DNA of 64,000 bases, from positions 372,001-436,000 of the forward strand of contig NZ_CP096115.1 of the NCBI RefSeq assembly GCF_024662215.1. The letters run 5' to 3'. Source of the stretch: Methanoplanus endosymbiosus. GTDB taxonomy: Archaea; Halobacteriota; Methanomicrobia; Methanomicrobiales; Methanomicrobiaceae. This document shows positions 50,855 to 61,828 of the stretch, piece after piece (position 1 is the first letter of the stretch; every line of letters starts with the position of its first letter). The notes beneath the pieces were generated by a model. The model was not told where the DNA came from and did no database searches. It saw only the letters and a program-made list of their open reading frames with translations. The position numbers and the translations under genes are program-made.

Positions 50855-52828
50855 TTACAGGCTAAGTTCTTCCGGAAATAAATTTGTAACCGGATTCATT
50901 TCCGGTGTTTCTTTGGATTCTATCTCTTCATTGTCCGGAAATATCCGTTTTTCAGTACTTATCATTATGCTTTCCAGCATATCCTGATAGTCCATTCCTG
51001 CAAATCCTGCCATCTTTGCCAGATGTCCGTCCCAGCACCAGCCAGGATTGGGATTGGCTTCAAGAAGCCTTGGAGTACCGTTTTTATCGAGTCGCCAGTC
51101 AAAACGGGCATAATCGCGGCAGCCAAGCCTTGCATACAGCCTGATACAGCTGGCTGTAAGGAATCTCAATACATCTTCAGGAAGATCAGCCTTAATTGAT
51201 TTTAGATTCCAGTATGGACTTTCAGGATCCCATTTTGCCTCATAACCGCAGACTTTTGGCAGGTCCTCAGGAAGTGCAGAATAATCCTCTTCTATTACGG
51301 GGAGAACGATGTATTCATCCGGAAGATTGCCTATTATGCCTACGCTGATATCTTTTCCGTTTAAGAATTCCTCAACAAGAATTGGTTTTTCCGCTCCGGA
51401 AATTCTTCTGACATTGAGTATTGCATCCTGAAGTTCATTCACATCACTGCATATGCTCTCTTTTGTTATTCCAACACCTGAATCTCCAAAATTTGGTTTG
51501 ACTATTATCGGAAATTGTATTGGGAATTCAATAAATGAACTGTCTTCGGGGTTTATCATGAATGCTTTTGGAACAGGTATATCAAGCTCCTTTGCAATAC
51601 CACGCACAAGGGATTTGTCATAGCAGTATGCAAGACACTGAGGGTTTCCGCCGGAGTATTCTATATCCAGCATTTCAAGTAATGCAGGGATATGCAGCTC
51701 TTTTTTTGGGTCATTTGAAAAACCTTCATCACATAAATTTAATGCAAATTCAAACCTGTTTTTGTTTTTGATGAGGTAACTCATGAGATTTTTATGGCTG
51801 TTTACATAGGTGAATTTATAATTCTTAAGACCGGAAAGTGCATCTTTCAGCTGGGAAATAGTCTTAAAATCATCGTCATCGAATTTGCAGAGAGGTTTTA
51901 CCTTATCTTCCAGTTCCGGGTCACCCATAATCACAATTACTGATCTTTTTTTATTGGCCTGTTTCTTCTTAGGTGACCACTCTTTCTCTACAGATGAAGT
52001 TATGATGAGGCGGCGTGCCATCATACCGAGATCCTGCATTCTCTGTGATTCTGTTATAATGGGTTCATGTATCCGGATATTTTTAAAACCGCATTCTTTA
52101 AGCATGGAAGAGATCATTTCAGGGTTGTAAAGCCGTTCCGCATAGAACTGGTCAGCTATTACCCCCTTGCTGACATGAGTGATAACCTCACGGGTTACAA
52201 GCCTTTCATTATCGGAAGATAGTGACCTTTCCCTGCATACAAAATAATTTCTGTCTATCCATTCCCAGCTTCTCGGTGTGAAATTTTCTTTCAGATAATC
52301 TCCGTCTGATACATCCAGAAGTAATTTACCGCCGGGTTTTAGTGTTCTGAATACTTCAAGCAGGACTTTTTTGTCGTCATCGCATGACTCAAAATATCCA
52401 AAGCTGTTTCCCGGAATAATAATACAGTCAAATGTGTCAGTGGAATAGGAAAGCTTTCTTGCATCGCCTTCCCTGAAGTTAATGCTGTAGCCATCTTTTG
52501 CAGACTGTTTTTTTGCCCTGTTTATCAGATAATGAGATCTGTCAAGACCATAGAGATTTTTAAAACCCCTTGCTGCAAGCTCAACTGAATGCCGGCCCTG
52601 TCCACAGCATAGATCAAGAATTATATCATCTTTTGAGATATCCATCAGAGAGATAAAGCTCTCAGTCTCTTTTGATGTAATTTCATTGTCATCAACAACA
52701 TCACCGTCTGTTCTGAGATAATTGGCATTGAATATCTCTCTCCACCATTCTGCCCGGACATAACTTTCAAGGCTTTCAACCGGACCAAGAAATGTAGTGA
52801 TTCTGGATTTACCTTTCGATTTATTCAT
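50855..52828 (-). CDS. methyltransferase / D-Ala-D-Ala-ligase-like ATP-grasp fusion
   Basis: 657 residues in two parts. Residues 1-290: class I SAM methyltransferase, with motif I LDLCCGQGRHS (71-81), GLDRSHYL, and FDCIIIPGNSFGYF. Residues 300-640: ATP-grasp ligase resembling D-Ala-D-Ala ligase (FPIIVKPNFGDSGVGI, VEEFLNGKDISVGIIG, RLLEANPNPGWCWDGHLAKMA). Methanogens of this group have no peptidoglycan, so the ligase likely joins amino acids or similar groups into another compound that is also methylated. The substrate is unknown. It follows the two prenyl-synthase-like genes after 270 bases. Confidence 0.85.
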   Translation of the reverse strand: MNKSKGKSRITTFLGPVESLESYVRAEWWREIFNANYLRTDGDVVDDNEITSKETESFISLMDISKDDIILDLCCGQGRHSVELAARGFKNLYGLDRSHYLINRAKKQSAKDGYSINFREGDARKLSYSTDTFDCIIIPGNSFGYFESCDDDKKVLLEVFRTLKPGGKLLLDVSDGDYLKENFTPRSWEWIDRNYFVCRERSLSSDNERLVTREVITHVSKGVIADQFYAERLYNPEMISSMLKECGFKNIRIHEPIITESQRMQDLGMMARRLIITSSVEKEWSPKKKQANKKRSVIVIMGDPELEDKVKPLCKFDDDDFKTISQLKDALSGLKNYKFTYVNSHKNLMSYLIKNKNRFEFALNLCDEGFSNDPKKELHIPALLEMLDIEYSGGNPQCLAYCYDKSLVRGIAKELDIPVPKAFMINPEDSSFIEFPIQFPIIVKPNFGDSGVGITKESICSDVNELQDAILNVRRISGAEKPILVEEFLNGKDISVGIIGNLPDEYIVLPVIEEDYSALPEDLPKVCGYEAKWDPESPYWNLKSIKADLPEDVLRFLTASCIRLYARLGCRDYARFDWRLDKNGTPRLLEANPNPGWCWDGHLAKMAGFAGMDYQDMLESIMISTEKRIFPDNEEIESKETPEMNPVTNLFPEELSL

Positions 52829-53098: not shown

Positions 53099-54571
53099 TT
53101 ATCTGACATCAGAATCATTCAGGCTTTTTTTCATATCAAGCGAAATCTTAGTGCATCTGCCTGCAATTTCGGTTTCAAAATCCGTAACCAGATTATAATT
53201 CCGGCCAGTGAGGCAGAGCTGCCGGTTTGTTTCATTATCAGGGATGTTCATCTCCGAAAACAGTTTACAGAGATCTTCTGTACGGTTTTTTTCAGAAAGG
53301 ACTTTTAATGACTGAAATATAGAGGCCATATAAAGATTGCAGGCATCTTTTAACTCCGGATAATCAATAAATGATGTACGTGATATTGCCAGCATCAAAA
53401 TTTCAATGGGATGGTGATTCAGAGGATTTGCTCCGAATTTATAATAATTAAAAGCTGTAATATTTCCATTTTTGGTGTCTTCCGGAAAATCACGGAGATC
53501 GTCAGGGAGCTGAAATATATATCCTGATCTAAGAGTATGTACCAGAAATTTTTCGGTTATCCGGTATTCTGCAAGAATTGCAGGTATTATTCTTGTATAG
53601 GCTCCTTTCAGTGCAGAGTTGATATACAGATCTTCATCTCTGAGGATATTGCCGTATCCCCATTCTGCACCTTTTAATGAAGCATCTGCAATGGCCGAAT
53701 ATGCCTTTGCAAGCATTTTCCATCTATTTTCCGGCAGTTCATCACGCATTTTAATCAGTGCATTTTCGGTATATGCCATAAGATAATTTTCAGATAACTC
53801 TATATCATCATCTCTGGTGCTCAACAATATATTTGAAATATTTCTGTAGTATTTCTCTTTCTCTTCTGAAGAGTAGTCAGGATCATCAATGATTTCGTCA
53901 AAGAGATAGGTTATACCATAGCAGGAGCCAAGAACAATTTTTTGGCGTAAATTGCTGCTTTTGCTGTCATAACCAAATTTTACAACTCCAAACATAGAAC
54001 CGATATATTTTGCAGACAGCCCTTTTTTAATGTAAGATTCCGGACAGTTTCTGATAAATTCTGTAATTTCATCTTTGATAAGTGCGGTATCATCAACGGA
54101 GATTCCTGCCATTTCACAGCAGATTTCAGCAAGTTTTTCCGGGTCTAAAAGTTCATTATTTCCGCTTATCTTTCCGGAATTTCCGAACCTGAAATATTTA
54201 TCTTTCAGATCTTTTTTAAAGGCTTTAATCTCTTTATTCTGCCTGATTATTCCTTTATCCCTGACTGAGGCATACCTGTAATAATTTATAGCTTCACTGT
54301 ACATTTCAGAATATTTTATCAGACTGTCTGTATCTGTTTTGAAGATTTTATCTGTGGATTTTAGGGCATTGTGTATAAAATACCGCTTTTTAAGCCATCT
54401 TCTCTCAGACTGGATAATTTTAGTGATAATTTCCGGATTATATGCAGTCCTGCCATAATTCAGCAGATCATCAAAATCATGGAGGAGATATCTGTGGGAT
54501 ACATCATACAGGCTTTCATCTTCGTTATATCCGTTAAGGTTATCCAGTACTGCCTGAATCATTACTGCCAC
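53099..54571 (-). CDS. prenyl-synthase-like protein, paralogue B
   Basis: 490 residues. The C-terminal part has isoprenoid-synthase motifs: DEIIDD (225-230, first aspartate-rich region) and DDLRD (357-361, second), plus GAYTRIIPAI. The N-terminal 200 residues are a helical extension. The usual IPP-binding GKxxR is not intact (AKYIGS at 187-192). It is clearly related to the next gene upstream by matching segments such as AYNPEI/EYDPEI. GTG 54571 or ATG 54562 starts it. Isoprenoid chemistry is inferred from the fold motifs; a terpene-synthase or non-elongating role is possible. Confidence 0.65.
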   Translation of the reverse strand: MAVMIQAVLDNLNGYNEDESLYDVSHRYLLHDFDDLLNYGRTAYNPEIITKIIQSERRWLKKRYFIHNALKSTDKIFKTDTDSLIKYSEMYSEAINYYRYASVRDKGIIRQNKEIKAFKKDLKDKYFRFGNSGKISGNNELLDPEKLAEICCEMAGISVDDTALIKDEITEFIRNCPESYIKKGLSAKYIGSMFGVVKFGYDSKSSNLRQKIVLGSCYGITYLFDEIIDDPDYSSEEKEKYYRNISNILLSTRDDDIELSENYLMAYTENALIKMRDELPENRWKMLAKAYSAIADASLKGAEWGYGNILRDEDLYINSALKGAYTRIIPAILAEYRITEKFLVHTLRSGYIFQLPDDLRDFPEDTKNGNITAFNYYKFGANPLNHHPIEILMLAISRTSFIDYPELKDACNLYMASIFQSLKVLSEKNRTEDLCKLFSEMNIPDNETNRQLCLTGRNYNLVTDFETEIAGRCTKISLDMKKSLNDSDVR

Positions 54572-54617
54572 ATCTTTTTATCTGAACTTTTCCGGGTTTT
54601 GTTAAATCCGGACACTC

Positions 54618-56162
54618 TTAATGGCCGAAAACGGGATTTTTACTCCACCCGCCCCGTATATTAACGGCAATTTCCGAATGTATTTTTGCAGTTTCAGCTT
54701 CAATGTCGATAATGACATCACTGCATCCGGCAATCATTAGAAGTTCTTCTTTGATTTTTCCATCCGGAAAATTCATCTCATTAAAAAGTATATTAAGGTC
54801 TTCTTCACCTGATTTGAGCTTTAATAGCCGGATTGAATGCGTTATCCGCATAATCCAGAGGTCTTCTGCATCAGGAATATCTTTCAGATTTTCAGCAGAC
54901 ATTCTGCTTACTGCTGCAAGGAAAATTTCCACCGGATGGATCTCCTGTTCTGTTTTGCCATAGCGGAAATAATTGAAAGGCGTTATACTGCCTTCTGTTA
55001 TGTCATCAGTTATATCCCGGAGGTCATCTGTAAGCTGATATATCAGTCCGCCTCTCATGCAGTGTGACAAAAATATCTCATCAATTTCATGACCACCAAG
55101 AATTGCCGGAATAATTCTTGTATATGCTGCTTTTATAGCGGCAATTGAGTATATCTCACTATCTGTAAGCGGTGTACTGTAATTCCACTGAGAACCTGCC
55201 TCAGTTGCTTCTGCAATAGCAAGATATGACTGTGCAACCATACTGCCTCTTTTATCATCAAGAATATCACACATTCCGGCAAATGCAGATTCTGAAAAAG
55301 CCATCAGCGGATCTGAGGAATAAATAATTTCATTGGATTTTCCGGCGTTTAAAATATTCAGGACATTTTGGTAGTAATCCTCTTTCTCAGATTTTCTGTA
55401 TTCTGCATCGTCCAGTATGTCATCAAAGAGATATGTTGCCGCAAAAAAACCCGCCAGCCTCAAAATATTATTGTAATCCGGATTTTCAGCTGATTTTGAA
55501 AAGAATATTACCCCAATAATGGATCTCATGAATTTTCCGAATATTCCATTTTCAAGGTATTTTTTCGGGCAGATATCAATATATTCATGAATGTACGAAT
55601 ATAACCAAAGGAAAGACTCTTCATCATTTTTTCTGATGATCTTCTTTGAAATTCTGATAAATTCTTCAGGCGAGTCCAGAAAATTCTGCCTGTTATCTTT
55701 TTTTCCCGGAAGTAGTATTTCTATCCACTCTTTAAACTCTTCAGGATTTATATTCGGATTTGAAGCTATGCCCTGATCCCTCATCACTGCGAATCTGAAT
55801 AATCTATCTTCTGCCTTTAAAATTTCTTTTTCCCTCAATCTCTCCTCATTGTTGAGGCTGAATTTCCGGTCAGAAAAAATAACAATCTCTCTTAAGTATT
55901 TAAGTTTCTGAAGCCTTTTGCGTTCTTTTGTAAGCCTGCCTAAGATTATCTCAGGATCATATTCATTCTCCATGAATGCAGTAAGATTTTGATAATCTTC
56001 TTCTGCATATTGATATGAAATTTTAAATATGTCATTCTCCGGTTTTTCCCCTAAAAGAGTGTCCATAAGCTCTTTCATCATAAATAATCCTGTTATCCCA
56101 TTAAGGGTATTGTTACTGATGTTATTAACAATCTTGTTTTTTAAGAGAAATTCCACTTCCAA
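54618..56162 (-). CDS. prenyl-synthase-like protein, paralogue A
   Basis: 514 residues. FARM-like DDILDD (247-252), SARM-like DDLRD (379-383), a GKFMRS element (209-214) that resembles the IPP-binding GKxxRP, and AAYTRIIPAI. The N-terminal 200 residues are helical and not seen in normal 300-350-residue archaeal prenyltransferases. The longest start is TTG 56162, about 40 bases below a TATA-like AATTATAATATTTTT (about 56196-56210, minus strand). An alternative ATG at 56081 (AGGAT before it, aligning with the paralogue start) is equally likely. It probably heads an operon with paralogue B. Confidence 0.67.
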   Translation of the reverse strand: MEVEFLLKNKIVNNISNNTLNGITGLFMMKELMDTLLGEKPENDIFKISYQYAEEDYQNLTAFMENEYDPEIILGRLTKERKRLQKLKYLREIVIFSDRKFSLNNEERLREKEILKAEDRLFRFAVMRDQGIASNPNINPEEFKEWIEILLPGKKDNRQNFLDSPEEFIRISKKIIRKNDEESFLWLYSYIHEYIDICPKKYLENGIFGKFMRSIIGVIFFSKSAENPDYNNILRLAGFFAATYLFDDILDDAEYRKSEKEDYYQNVLNILNAGKSNEIIYSSDPLMAFSESAFAGMCDILDDKRGSMVAQSYLAIAEATEAGSQWNYSTPLTDSEIYSIAAIKAAYTRIIPAILGGHEIDEIFLSHCMRGGLIYQLTDDLRDITDDITEGSITPFNYFRYGKTEQEIHPVEIFLAAVSRMSAENLKDIPDAEDLWIMRITHSIRLLKLKSGEEDLNILFNEMNFPDGKIKEELLMIAGCSDVIIDIEAETAKIHSEIAVNIRGGWSKNPVFGH

Positions 56163-56274: not shown

Positions 56275-59200
56275 TTAATGCTCTCTTCTAAGCAGAATAA
56301 ATGCTGCTGCAAGAGAGATGCCGGTTAATACAACAGTTCCCGGAAGTGGTGTTGGTGTTGGTGTTGCTGTTGCTTCTGGGGTCTCAGTCTTTTCAGTTCC
56401 GGCTGGTTCCGCAGGTTTTGTGGACTCCGGCTTTACTGTCTTATCCGGAACTTCTGACGGGATTACAGGTCCCGGCCCAAATGGCAGGGTTTCTCCGGTG
56501 ATAAATTCATCTGTCACTGATCCGACTGCAAACCATCCGAATCCGGGCATCTCTGCTTTTACTGTTACAATTTTATTTCCGTTCTCTTCTGTAATATTCA
56601 GAATTTCAAGCATATTCCATGAAAGTGCTGATTCATTGTAATACCAGATTTCCGGGAGTGAACTGTTGTTCTCTTCCAGCCATTTTTCCGGAATTTCTGC
56701 TGTATATGCCACATTTTCAAGGGACGCAGATGTTGTATAATACAGAACTGTCTTTACATATTCCATAACTGCTGCATTGCCGCCTTCCGGAACTCCCATA
56801 CCGCTCTCAGGATTGTTCATAACCTGTGCAGTAATTCTCAGATCAGGTATCTCCTTTACCGGAGTGAGTGCAATTCCTGTAAAAGCAGAGCTGCTCATCG
56901 TAAGCGCCACCGTTTTTCCGGTTGCGAGATTCTCTGCATCAGTGATGCCTACAGAGTTGTCATCATCCCTGCTGCTTTCATATGATGACTGTACTGAAAA
57001 TCCGGCAACGCCATAGACTGAAAATCCGTCTGTTGTCACTTTGAAGAGTGATTCAGTGCCTGAAATTCCAAGATATGTCGGGTTGATGTTCTCACTCATT
57101 CCGTCATCCTTCCACCTGACAATGGTAATTCTCTGAGGGCCGCCCATTGAATTTACCCACGAGGTATTGACTGAGAAGCTTATGGTGGCCTCAGATATTG
57201 CAGAACTATTGTCAAAGCCGGATTTTGTGAAGTAAATGGTATATGCTACATCTTTTAAGCCTGGCACTGCAACTGAGAAGGCATTCCTTGCATCATCAGC
57301 ACATCCGGCTGAGATCTCTGTTGATACACTGGCATCTCCATCATATTCATCCATCGTCATTGAAACACCGACTGAGGCATTACCAAGTCCGCTGCCGAGT
57401 AATGCGTTAAGTTCAGGCTGCTGCATAGTTACGGATGTTACCTGTCCTGAAACACTGCCTCCTGATTTAGAGGGTGTTTCATTTGTCTTTATTTCGATCT
57501 TTGTCCCATCCGGTTTCTCTACTACAATGCCGTCATTGGTTGTCGTAACATTGCCGGCTTTGCTTGTATTTATGAAAATAACCTGTGAACCATCAGGAAG
57601 GGTTTCTGTCCTTGTGCCGTTTATTTTAGTACCTGCCTTCTCTGAAGCCTTTGGTTCCGGCGGTGCCTCCATTACACGGATAATCTTAGGGACCGATGTG
57701 GTTGTTTTACTGTCCCATACTGCATCAAGGGTTACTGTGTAATTGCCTGTGTCATTGAGATAAGTCTGCACACTGCCTCCATCATATGAATGATCTGTTC
57801 CGTCCGGAGAAACTATATGCCACTTCCATGATTTCAGGTCTGCTGAAGTTTTGGTTGCATCTGCCACAAAGTTTAAAGGAGCATGTCCTGAACCGGTTGA
57901 ACGGAATTTCGGAATATCTGTGAAACTGTATTCAATATATTCTATCTCTCCGGTTTTCACAGGTACTGTATATAATGGTGCATCAAAGTAATTCTGAAGG
58001 GTTATATTAACAGAATAATTTCCGGCGGGCATATAATATCCTGCATCTGACTCACGCCCGTAAGTCTTTCCGTCAATTTCTATCTCTGCACCTTCAGGTT
58101 CTGTTAACACAATGAGTGTACCATATTCCGGGTTGTAATAGAGTGGCAGTTCATCAACACCGACTATTGTGCCATCTGTATCATTGACAGTATATGTACA
58201 CGAGTCACAGATTCCGTCAAGGTCAGCGTCAGTGCAGGTCTGTGACATTCCTGTGCCGTCTGGTTTTGCCCATACGCTTCCTCCGCCGTAAGGGCTGCCT
58301 GTAACTGTAAATGCCTTATATATTGTATGGTTTAGTAAAGCATCCCATGCAAATGGTGCAGCTTCTGTTGATTTTGCAAGGATATTTTCCTTATTCATGA
58401 AGATATTGTTATACTCAGTAAAGCCGCGTGAATCCTGAATATATATGCCGTCACCTTCGGGTGCACTATTGGTTGAAACTGTTGTCTCCACAATTCTGGT
58501 ATCATTTGAGGCAACAAGAGATATTCCTCCGCCGGATATAGTGGCTGTGTTGTCTGAAACATAGCATCCTATTATATTTTCATATTCAGAACCAATTATG
58601 TTAATTCCACCACCGGAACTGGCAGTATTGTTCTCAATAATTGCACTGTATATATTATTACGCATTATAACTCCATCTTCGGAATTAATGTCCGGCTGTA
58701 GATACCCGTCATCTTCTGAAGATGCCAGAGTCAGGTGAATTAAATCATTATTGATCTCCTGAATTGCAGTATCAGATGTTATTCCTGCTGCGTCACTGAT
58801 TTCACGGGCTGCTTCTCCAGAGTAGGCTGCACCAATGATATTAATTCCACCTCCGCCGGATAAGTTTCCGCTTCCCGGAGCCGAGTTGCCACAAATTACT
58901 CCTCCGTAATAGTTCACCCAACATTCAAGTAAATTAATTCCTCCACCGCCTGTTCCGGCATAGTTGCCGGATATCTCTCCTTCATAAATGAACAACTGCC
59001 CACCAATTGAACTGAGACCACCGCCGTATGATGTTGCGTTGTTATTCTTCAGTTTTGTAAATCCAACTGAGCACTGTGAAGCTATAAGACTTAATCCACC
59101 ACCACGCACTGCATCGTTCTTCCTGATTTTATCAGAGTCAAATAATGCCCGTGATGCAATTATGTCTGCCGCACCTCCCCTATTGGCACTATTGTCAACA

Positions 59201-61719
59201 ATTATATTTTTCTTAAATTTCACCTTCGAGCCTAAGACTTTAACACCTCCACCTCCGGTGATTGCTGAATTGCTTTCAATTGTATTCCTTCTGAATGTTG
59301 CCTTTGCAGTCAATGTTAAACCATCTGAATCTGCTGCAATATCTGAGGATAAAAAGAGATCATCATCTGCATCCAGATCATCATCAGAGTATATATCCCA
59401 GAAGAGATCAGGATCTTCGGAGAGTTCTTCTTCATTAATGTAAATGTCGGTTCCGGCTGTTTCAGTTATATAATCTGCAATATTTCCGGTGAAAAACTCT
59501 GAGTCCGGATTATTCAATATCTCAGACAGTTTTTCAGGAGCTGATAATAATTCAGGATCAATATACAGTCCGGCAACCATTACACCTCCGCCACCAGAGA
59601 TAATTTCTGTTCCGTTTCCGGCATCATTTGAAGATATAGTATTATCAATAATTCTGGATTTACCGCCTATCTGGCATATGCCTGCTCCGCCCTCTCCTGC
59701 CTTGTTAATTTTAATAATATTGTCCCGGATTATAGTTTTTCCTGTAACAGTCTGAATTCCGGCACCAAATCCTGTAGCATTATTTTTAGAAATTCTGTTG
59801 CCGGATATCTCTGCCACTCCTGCCATCTGGCATATACCCGCACCGATCATTGTGGCGTTATTATTTCTGACATTATTGTCAGTAATGCTGGTGGTTGAAT
59901 TCATACAGAATATTCCCGCACCATAGTCAGCAGAATTACTGTTAATTGTATTATCTGAAATACAGCCGCTGGAGTCCATTAGTGCAACTCCGCCGCCAAC
60001 TATTAATGAGGTCTGGTTCTCTGTCGGAGCATTGAATCTAATAAGATTGTTGCAGATTGTAATGTTCTCAGATTCTTCTATAAGAATACCAACACCTGAC
60101 TGCACACCTATATCTTCAGAGATCTCCGGAACTGAAAGATATTGCATTAAATTTTCATCAAAATACTGACTGGATATGCAGTCCTGATAAATTGTTCCCT
60201 CCGGAATATTGAGTTTCTCCTGAATAAGATGGAATACTGAATCATTATTATCTGTATCTCTCAATATTCTGTTGTATTGTATATCTGTTCCGCAGATCTC
60301 AGAATCTCCGTTAGTTATTGCAATTCCCGCACCCGAATAAGCATAATTTCCGGTGAAATTGCACGAGTAGATTCTGTCTTCACTTGCATCACCTGCATAC
60401 CCTGCACCTTTGTCAGCTATATTGCTATAGAAATCAGTGTCGTGCAGCTCTGTCTCTGAAATAGCACTATAGATTCCGGCGCCAATATATGCATGGTTAT
60501 AATTGACATCACACCAATGGACTGATGTCAGACTGGCCACATCAAGGATTCCACCACCAATTATTGCAAGGTTATATGAAATATCAGAATTGAAAATTCT
60601 ATTTTCTGAATTTATGAAGAGAACTCCGGAGCCCGATAATGCAGTATTATAATATATCTCAGAATTATGAATTTCGGAGATACTATCATATACGACAATA
60701 CCGGCACCTTCAAAGCCGACATTTTCATGAATTGTGGAATTGGAGATCCATACAGAACTGTTGAATAACAATACAGCGCCACCTGTATCAGCATAGTTCC
60801 CTGATAAATCAGTTCCCCTTATGGCACCCTCTGCATTGTAAAATGATATGCCGGCACCCGTTTCTGCGGTATTGTTGATGACAGTACAGCGCTTAATTTC
60901 TGTATTTGCACAGTCATGAACAAAAATTCCTCCTCCGGATCTACCCATGTCCGGAACTTCATAAGTGGCATTGCATTCTGTAATTATTAGTTTACAGAGC
61001 CAGACGTTGTCAGCCGAAATAATAACCCCGGTGTTTTCAGGATCTGATATTGTCGGATATTCTTTTGGACTGTCGGATTCTGAACGGATGATAACGTCCG
61101 GAATTTCCACAACAAATCTGTCATACAAAATTCCTCCGGCATGGGCTATGAGGATGGTATTTTTTTCAGAGGCATTGCAGACATCAAGTGCTGTCTGGAC
61201 CTGCCTGAAAGGTTCTGCCTTTGAACCGTCTCCACCTTCAGGCGCGCTCGCATCAACATACCAGACAGTTCTGTTCTCAATGTAGGGGAGAGCACCATCG
61301 AATGTTCTCTTCTGCATCAGCAGCTGATTTGTGCAGGTTTCCGGCTTATCACTGCTCTTAACTGCATTTGACATCTGTCCGGAGAAAACTTCAGATTCAG
61401 TATCAAACCCGTTTTCCGGACTGAAGTCTTCAATATCTGCTGCCAGAGTATTGTTATCCGGCATTTCGTTTACAGTGCCGGTAATAATTCTGGATTCTTC
61501 GGTTAATTCCAATGCTAAACTTTGATTTGTATCCAAATCAAAATCTTTTGAACTTAAATCGGATAAATTATCAGTCTGACCGGTCTGATATTTTACTCCC
61601 GTAAAAATTGAATTATTCTCATCTGTTAACGATGTTTCTGCCAAAACCGGCTGAATGCTGAATATTAAACATATGGTTAATATCAGAATTACTGACGGCA
61701 AAGAAAAATGACGAGCCAT
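56275..61719 (-). CDS. giant parallel beta-helix surface protein
   Basis: 1,814 residues. Signal peptide MARHFSLPSVILILTICLIFS. WYVDASAPEGGDGSKAEPF starts a right-handed beta-helix of many NosD/PbH1-type turns (repeated N-rich ladders such as ISxNxAxxGAGI) to about residue 1150. Then a PEGA-type segment (GTLIVLTEPEGAEIEIDGKTYG), a PKD-like domain (GSGHAPLNFVADAT), a PGF-pre-PGF-like module and a TPTPTP stalk. A C-terminal transmembrane helix follows PLPGTVVLTG, then RREH. GTG 61728 is an alternative start. An anchored cell-surface protein is likely (inference). Confidence 0.85.
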   Translation of the reverse strand: MARHFSLPSVILILTICLIFSIQPVLAETSLTDENNSIFTGVKYQTGQTDNLSDLSSKDFDLDTNQSLALELTEESRIITGTVNEMPDNNTLAADIEDFSPENGFDTESEVFSGQMSNAVKSSDKPETCTNQLLMQKRTFDGALPYIENRTVWYVDASAPEGGDGSKAEPFRQVQTALDVCNASEKNTILIAHAGGILYDRFVVEIPDVIIRSESDSPKEYPTISDPENTGVIISADNVWLCKLIITECNATYEVPDMGRSGGGIFVHDCANTEIKRCTVINNTAETGAGISFYNAEGAIRGTDLSGNYADTGGAVLLFNSSVWISNSTIHENVGFEGAGIVVYDSISEIHNSEIYYNTALSGSGVLFINSENRIFNSDISYNLAIIGGGILDVASLTSVHWCDVNYNHAYIGAGIYSAISETELHDTDFYSNIADKGAGYAGDASEDRIYSCNFTGNYAYSGAGIAITNGDSEICGTDIQYNRILRDTDNNDSVFHLIQEKLNIPEGTIYQDCISSQYFDENLMQYLSVPEISEDIGVQSGVGILIEESENITICNNLIRFNAPTENQTSLIVGGGVALMDSSGCISDNTINSNSADYGAGIFCMNSTTSITDNNVRNNNATMIGAGICQMAGVAEISGNRISKNNATGFGAGIQTVTGKTIIRDNIIKINKAGEGGAGICQIGGKSRIIDNTISSNDAGNGTEIISGGGGVMVAGLYIDPELLSAPEKLSEILNNPDSEFFTGNIADYITETAGTDIYINEEELSEDPDLFWDIYSDDDLDADDDLFLSSDIAADSDGLTLTAKATFRRNTIESNSAITGGGGVKVLGSKVKFKKNIIVDNSANRGGAADIIASRALFDSDKIRKNDAVRGGGLSLIASQCSVGFTKLKNNNATSYGGGLSSIGGQLFIYEGEISGNYAGTGGGGINLLECWVNYYGGVICGNSAPGSGNLSGGGGINIIGAAYSGEAAREISDAAGITSDTAIQEINNDLIHLTLASSEDDGYLQPDINSEDGVIMRNNIYSAIIENNTASSGGGINIIGSEYENIIGCYVSDNTATISGGGISLVASNDTRIVETTVSTNSAPEGDGIYIQDSRGFTEYNNIFMNKENILAKSTEAAPFAWDALLNHTIYKAFTVTGSPYGGGSVWAKPDGTGMSQTCTDADLDGICDSCTYTVNDTDGTIVGVDELPLYYNPEYGTLIVLTEPEGAEIEIDGKTYGRESDAGYYMPAGNYSVNITLQNYFDAPLYTVPVKTGEIEYIEYSFTDIPKFRSTGSGHAPLNFVADATKTSADLKSWKWHIVSPDGTDHSYDGGSVQTYLNDTGNYTVTLDAVWDSKTTTSVPKIIRVMEAPPEPKASEKAGTKINGTRTETLPDGSQVIFINTSKAGNVTTTNDGIVVEKPDGTKIEIKTNETPSKSGGSVSGQVTSVTMQQPELNALLGSGLGNASVGVSMTMDEYDGDASVSTEISAGCADDARNAFSVAVPGLKDVAYTIYFTKSGFDNSSAISEATISFSVNTSWVNSMGGPQRITIVRWKDDGMSENINPTYLGISGTESLFKVTTDGFSVYGVAGFSVQSSYESSRDDDNSVGITDAENLATGKTVALTMSSSAFTGIALTPVKEIPDLRITAQVMNNPESGMGVPEGGNAAVMEYVKTVLYYTTSASLENVAYTAEIPEKWLEENNSSLPEIWYYNESALSWNMLEILNITEENGNKIVTVKAEMPGFGWFAVGSVTDEFITGETLPFGPGPVIPSEVPDKTVKPESTKPAEPAGTEKTETPEATATPTPTPLPGTVVLTGISLAAAFILLRREH

Positions 61720-61828
61720 AATAAACACAACCTAAATGTATCAGTATGTGTATTTAGTGACTAAAACTATTGCCCCTGTGAATTAACCAGACTCAGGATA
61801 AAAAAATTGGGTTGTATGGGATTATTGC

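Follow-up and report, generated by a model that had tools for sequence, protein, structure and literature searches.

Background

Substitutions that pile up in the IPP-binding motifs of duplicated isoprenyl diphosphate synthases (IDSs) mark the change from IDS to terpene synthase (TPS) in insects (PMC10962984). The sandfly sobralene synthase keeps three of 15 IPP-binding residues (PMC10962984), and the termite GGPPS-like TPS likewise reflects an IDS-to-TPS change (PMC13143122). In the heterodimeric hexaprenyl diphosphate synthase HexA/HexB, the catalytic Asp motifs are, according to a review, those of HexB (PMC7839719).

The proteins described here, A and B, are encoded by a tandem gene pair of a Methanomicrobiales methanogen. 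They are similar to trans-IDSs (PF00348: GGPPS, FPPS, and polyprenyl synthases) in the fold, in the positions and spacing of the first and second Asp-rich motifs (FARM and SARM), and in the helix-F Lys and the Gln preceding the SARM, A also having the GKxxR element. They differ from trans-IDSs in about 140 extra N-terminal residues, the absence of RRxxP after the FARM, an altered KT motif, and a score under the Pfam cut-off; in addition, B is without the Arg of GKxxR. Like the insect IDS-derived TPSs, they are duplicated IDS relatives with retained Asp motifs and eroded IPP-binding residues (PMC10962984, PMC13143122), but they are archaeal, far more diverged from IDSs, and extended at the N-terminus, and their activity is only predicted. 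With bacterial class I terpene cyclases (BjKS and epi-isozizaene synthase) they have in common the class I fold, BjKS giving the highest VIA Z, and an acidic triad with i, i+4, i+8 spacing at the NSE position; the triad is, however, D-D-D and not N-S-E, the helix-F Lys is present, and A has GKxxR. As in HexA/HexB, there are two IDS-fold proteins, possibly paired (PMC7839719), but here both partners possess both Asp motifs and the N-terminal extension. A and B constitute a new uncharacterized family inside a known superfamily, whose chemistry is known by fold, and no paper on this family was found among open-licence papers. What is new is the architecture (the N-terminal extension and the fixed asymmetric pair) and the restricted distribution.

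The gene pair and its genomic setting

The window analyzed here is the 64,000-nucleotide stretch at positions 372001-436000 of a 3,163,021-base single-contig genome, and all coordinates below refer to it. An earlier note, made from the letters of this stretch alone, described two adjacent genes between 53099 and 56162, and these were found to be in place: gene A (54618..56081), encoding a class I isoprenoid-synthase-like protein with GKxxR, and its paralog gene B (53099..54562), where AKxxG replaces GKxxR, both on the minus strand and separated by a 55-bp spacer from the stop of A to the start of B (54563..54617). The lengths given there, 490 and 514 residues, need revision, as both proteins consist of 487 residues and the figure of 514 came from a TTG at 56162, upstream of the conserved ATG at 56081. 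The closest relative, in genome G024, has two in-frame TAA codons upstream of the common ATG, and the homologs begin with M[MI]xEL, matching the ATG start of A; thus A has 487 and not 514 residues. Gene B starts with the ATG at 54562. The identity between proteins A and B is 33%.

In every A-B pair found, the two genes lie on the same strand with a short spacer, which suggests that they are co-transcribed as an operon. The GC content of the pair is 0.36-0.37 versus 0.42 for the window; this lower value may fit acquisition of the genes, of which it is no proof. The gene directly upstream of A codes for a protein of 1817 aa that contains a PEGA domain and right-handed beta-helix repeats (56275-61728, minus strand), and which is absent beside the A-B pair of the same-genus genome. 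At 50855-52828 (minus strand) lies a fusion of a SAM methyltransferase domain to a D-Ala-D-Ala-ligase-like ATP-grasp domain, 96% identical to its counterpart in the same-genus genome.

Predicted fold and the N-terminal extension

AlphaFold models built from the alignment of 12 A/B sequences are all helical, with mean pLDDT of 88.2 for A and 87.3 for B. The comparison with class I synthases that had been proposed as a check agreed with the class I isoprenoid-synthase fold: the 50 Foldseek and 50 VIA-align matches listed for each model consist of class I isoprenoid synthases (IDSs, squalene synthases, and terpene cyclases), barring one UbiA prenyltransferase homolog in the Foldseek list of B. 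The top VIA-align match of both models is the ent-kaurene synthase BjKS (Z 13.9, rmsd 4.0, 243 aligned residues for A; Z 13.6 for B), values that are moderate among helical proteins; chance matches of helical bundles can come close to a Z of 13. The Foldseek E-values are weak, the best being 2.2e-3. Together with the motif positions, these predicted-model matches are convincing for the class I superfamily, but not for a subfamily. In BFVD, the model of A matched two uncharacterized proteins, of Pithovirus LCPAC403 (A0A481ZCB8, E 6.4e-5) and Cedratvirus kamchatka (A0A6G8MX44, E 1.7e-4), with E-values better than that of any PDB chain and a TM-score on the target of 0.62.

From the Lys of GKxxR, which is residue 183 in A but residue 42 in the GGPP synthase of the same genome, the N-terminal extension can be put at about 140 residues, shorter than the approximately 200 estimated before. 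In A, it corresponds to residues 1-140 (55662..56081, minus strand), is helical, and contains the invariant residues R96 and R101-D102-x-G104. Neither Pfam nor the PDB sequences yielded a convincing sequence relative of this region, and when it was used alone to search genomes, it retrieved the A/B family plus one marginal match (E 0.007). The extension thus appears to be new, as had been supposed, being found only in the A/B family.

Active-site motifs

The active-site elements of A can be aligned with those of the host GGPP synthase, where GKxxR starts at residue 41, the FARM at 82, KT at 173, and the SARM at 214, the equivalents in A being 182, 220, 317, and 352; the distance from FARM to SARM, 132 residues, is identical in the two proteins. 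In A (all features on the minus strand), the equivalent of the IPP-diphosphate site GKxxR of IDSs is GKFMR (residues 182-186, 55524..55538), the FARM is DDILDD (residues 220-225, 55407..55424) with no RRxxP downstream, K317 (55131..55133) corresponds to the Lys in the KT motif of IDSs, with Thr replaced, and the SARM is Q349-LT-DDLRDITDD360 (55002..55037), where D352, R355, D356, and D360 are invariant. The respective motifs of B, also on the minus strand, are AKYIG (53999..54013), DEIIDD (53882..53899), and DDLRDFPED (53477..53503). The C-terminus GGWSKNPVFGH (54621..54659, minus strand) is specific to A and absent from B, and its final V[FYC]GH is seen in all seven A proteins.

Both Asp-rich motifs and the AYTRIIPAI segment are indeed common to the pair, as the earlier note had it, and the former occur as D[DE]I[LI]DD and D[DE]LRD in all 12 members of the family. 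Nine residues (D220, D224, D225, K317, Q349, D352, R355, D356, and D360) are invariant in the 12 homologs, so the motifs are not a matter of chance. The reported presence of GKxxR in one protein and not in the other holds family-wide (7/7 A, 0/5 B): all five B proteins have AKxxG, with Lys alone kept and Arg changed to Gly. IPP-binding residues have been lost from A as well. The RR following the FARM, present as RRGAP in the host GGPP synthase, is lost in both A and B with no conserved basic pair in its place, and the Thr of the KT motif is changed to Ala, Gly, or Cys in both. Compared with the helix-F KT and [FY]QxxDDxxD patterns of IDSs, the Lys, the Gln, and the Asp residues are retained. 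Lys-233 after the FARM is invariant and could be a substitute for the lost Arg. A, in which Gly, Lys, and Arg of GKxxR persist together with the helix-F Lys and the Gln that precedes the SARM, may still bind IPP.

In terpene cyclases, the positions equivalent to D352, D356, and D360 are occupied by N-S-E, and in squalene/phytoene synthases by N-D-D. The acidic triad of the A/B family keeps the i, i+4, i+8 spacing and is not the NSE/DTE triad of canonical class I terpene synthases (PF19086/PF03936).

The retained fold and ligand residues, the alteration of many substrate-binding residues, and the sporadic occurrence of the family could also be explained if A and B were non-catalytic or regulatory binders of isoprenoid diphosphates, that is, a sensor or a carrier; such a role seems very improbable given that the Asp residues serving as metal ligands are almost fully conserved in A and B alike.

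Relationship to known synthase families

The PF00348 profile matches six of the 12 A/B members with the best E-value of 1.5e-5, under the cut-off (in the G024 genome search, A scores 25.9 bits against a cut-off of 27), and PF19086 gives a weak match in three of 12 (best E 0.0027). In profile-profile comparison by hhalign, the core of the family scored 47.1 with methanomicrobial IDSs (E 1e-5, probability 82%), the best of 40 column-shuffled decoys reaching 26.9. With archaeal squalene/phytoene synthases (PF00494) the score was 24.3 versus a decoy maximum of 22.5, and with archaeal Terpene_syn_C_2 proteins 13.8 versus 20.2. The full-length alignment with IDSs begins at GKxxR, residue 182. By these profiles, the C-terminal approximately 310 residues of A and B appear nearest to trans-IDSs and not to terpene or squalene/phytoene synthases. 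The proposal of a duplicated and diverged family of terpene-synthase type was partly supported: the duplication is old (see below), but the nearest relatives of the core are trans-IDSs. Searches of PDB and NCBIfam with single sequences returned nothing relevant.

A reaction that joins two allylic diphosphates, either head to head as in squalene/phytoene synthesis or irregularly, deserves consideration at this point, as the second motif can be read as LxDxLRDxxxD, resembling the LRDxxED of SQS and PSY, the missing RRxxP would fit, and SQS structures are among the Foldseek matches listed, most of them for B. We regard it as improbable: PF00494 has no match among the 12 A/B members and none in the source genome, the profile score is near the decoy maximum, and GKxxR and the helix-F Lys are IDS features. 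The identity as a squalene/phytoene synthase, prompted by LRDxxED, was rejected on the same score, and kinship with the archaeal Terpene_syn_C_2 proteins was rejected with no detectable relation, the score being at decoy level.

Several other proteins with synthase-type domains were observed in the same phylum. Fusions of about 750 aa in which an N-terminal CrtC/Lipocalin_9 part is joined to a polyprenyl synthetase domain (PF07143 + PF17186 + PF00348) occur in several Methanomicrobiales (L068:1231-3477, L069:2389-4674, L067:1461-3482) and are possibly another unstudied methanogen terpenoid enzyme. The archaeal Terpene_syn_C_2 family of about 320-340 aa, some members of which are above the Pfam cut-off, is found in Methanomicrobiales (L077, L080, and L082, with a common NWVGTWEREVxEGD stretch) and in the wider phylum (L073-L076, L078, L079, L081, L083, L084); by sequence, its members could be canonical class I terpene synthases of archaea. 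Finally, some Methanomicrobiales encode a second, divergent stand-alone PF00348 protein alongside the canonical GGPP synthase (L070:1753-2712, L072:1786-2670).

Distribution and evolution of the family

The A/B family was found in seven of 232 genomes of the class. Five genomes, including the source genome, contain the A-B tandem in identical order; the metagenome-assembled genome (MAG) G017 has A with no neighboring B, and one fragmented MAG has A and, on a separate contig, what may be the end of a B gene. The relatives are named Methanomicrobiaceae, Methanoculleus, and Methanocalculus, the carriers including Methanocalculus taiwanensis and Methanoculleus sp. FWC-SCC1. No additional homolog was detected in 393 further genomes across the phylum, and none outside Methanomicrobiales in a scan of one genome per species (84,980 species), with the limitation that the two genome-wide contig scans rely on short conserved peptides, which very distant relatives could escape. 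No relative is encoded in viral contigs or plasmids, and a viral or plasmid origin of the pair was rejected on these grounds.

On the phylogenetic tree, A and B form one clade each, both with support of 100/100, and thus either the duplication is older than the split of the genera or the pair was transferred as a unit. Neighboring genes are shared with the same-genus genome alone, where they flank the pair on one side; those at the loci of other genera differ. No gene consistently common to loci of different genera provides a functional clue, the recurrent ones being only common sensor-kinase-type paralogs, and no terpene tailoring genes were found nearby. Both genes are under purifying selection, with dN/dS of 0.14-0.24 (about 0.2) across their whole length.

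The conserved tandem could represent a heteromeric chain-elongating prenyl diphosphate synthase, with A as the catalytic elongase and B as the partner setting the chain length, like HexB and HexA of Micrococcus luteus, respectively. This main rival to our preferred explanation is consistent with the retention of GKxxR along with the helix-F Lys and the SARM Gln in A and the erosion of GKxxR in B, with IDSs being the nearest sequence relatives, and with the HexA/HexB precedent (PMC7839719). At the same time, RRxxP and the Thr of KT are missing from both proteins, B is under purifying selection with its two Asp motifs intact, unlike HexA/HexB, in which the catalytic ones are those of HexB, and one MAG has A only, so that we consider a heteromeric elongase rather unlikely. 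The last observation also means that the A-B pair is not strictly obligate.

Possible function of A and B

The explanation that we prefer, and to which we give roughly even credence, is that A and B would be an IDS-derived, non-elongating pair of class I synthases acting on FPP or GGPP within one pathway or complex, as we infer from the sequences. A trans-IDS ancestor would have gained the helical N-terminal region of about 140 residues and then undergone tandem duplication. As members of this superfamily with conserved Asp residues, A and B are expected to use class I chemistry, the Mg2+-assisted ionization of an allylic diphosphate: inside the helical barrel, the two Asp-rich motifs would face one another, bind Mg2+ and FPP or GGPP, and then abstract the diphosphate and ionize the substrate. 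The latter would be supplied by the canonical GGPP synthase, which is single in the source genome. In B, and probably also in A, no IPP would be added, and the carbocation would be quenched or cyclized as in terpene synthases. The two proteins probably function in one pathway, perhaps in one complex; the pair is retained in five genomes despite neighbors that differ between genera.

Terpene-synthase-like chemistry is favored because the IPP-binding residues are eroded while the Asp motifs are retained, as in the insect IDS-derived TPSs. By this analogy, B would fit the insect pattern well and A partly. A more specific version, a lineage-restricted two-subunit methanogen terpene synthase that is IDS-derived, has a new N-terminal domain, evolved independently, and makes a non-lipid terpenoid product, is put forward tentatively, as we think it somewhat doubtful. 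No characterized methanogen terpene synthase, and no such product of this archaeal group, was found to be reported among open-licence papers. If active, A and B would point to a methanogen product beyond membrane lipids, and their product may be a terpene or prenyl compound yet to be discovered. The family offers a self-contained system of two genes in culturable methanogens with the GKxxR contrast built in, and would allow a direct test of how an elongating synthase becomes a terpene synthase in organisms other than insects and plants.
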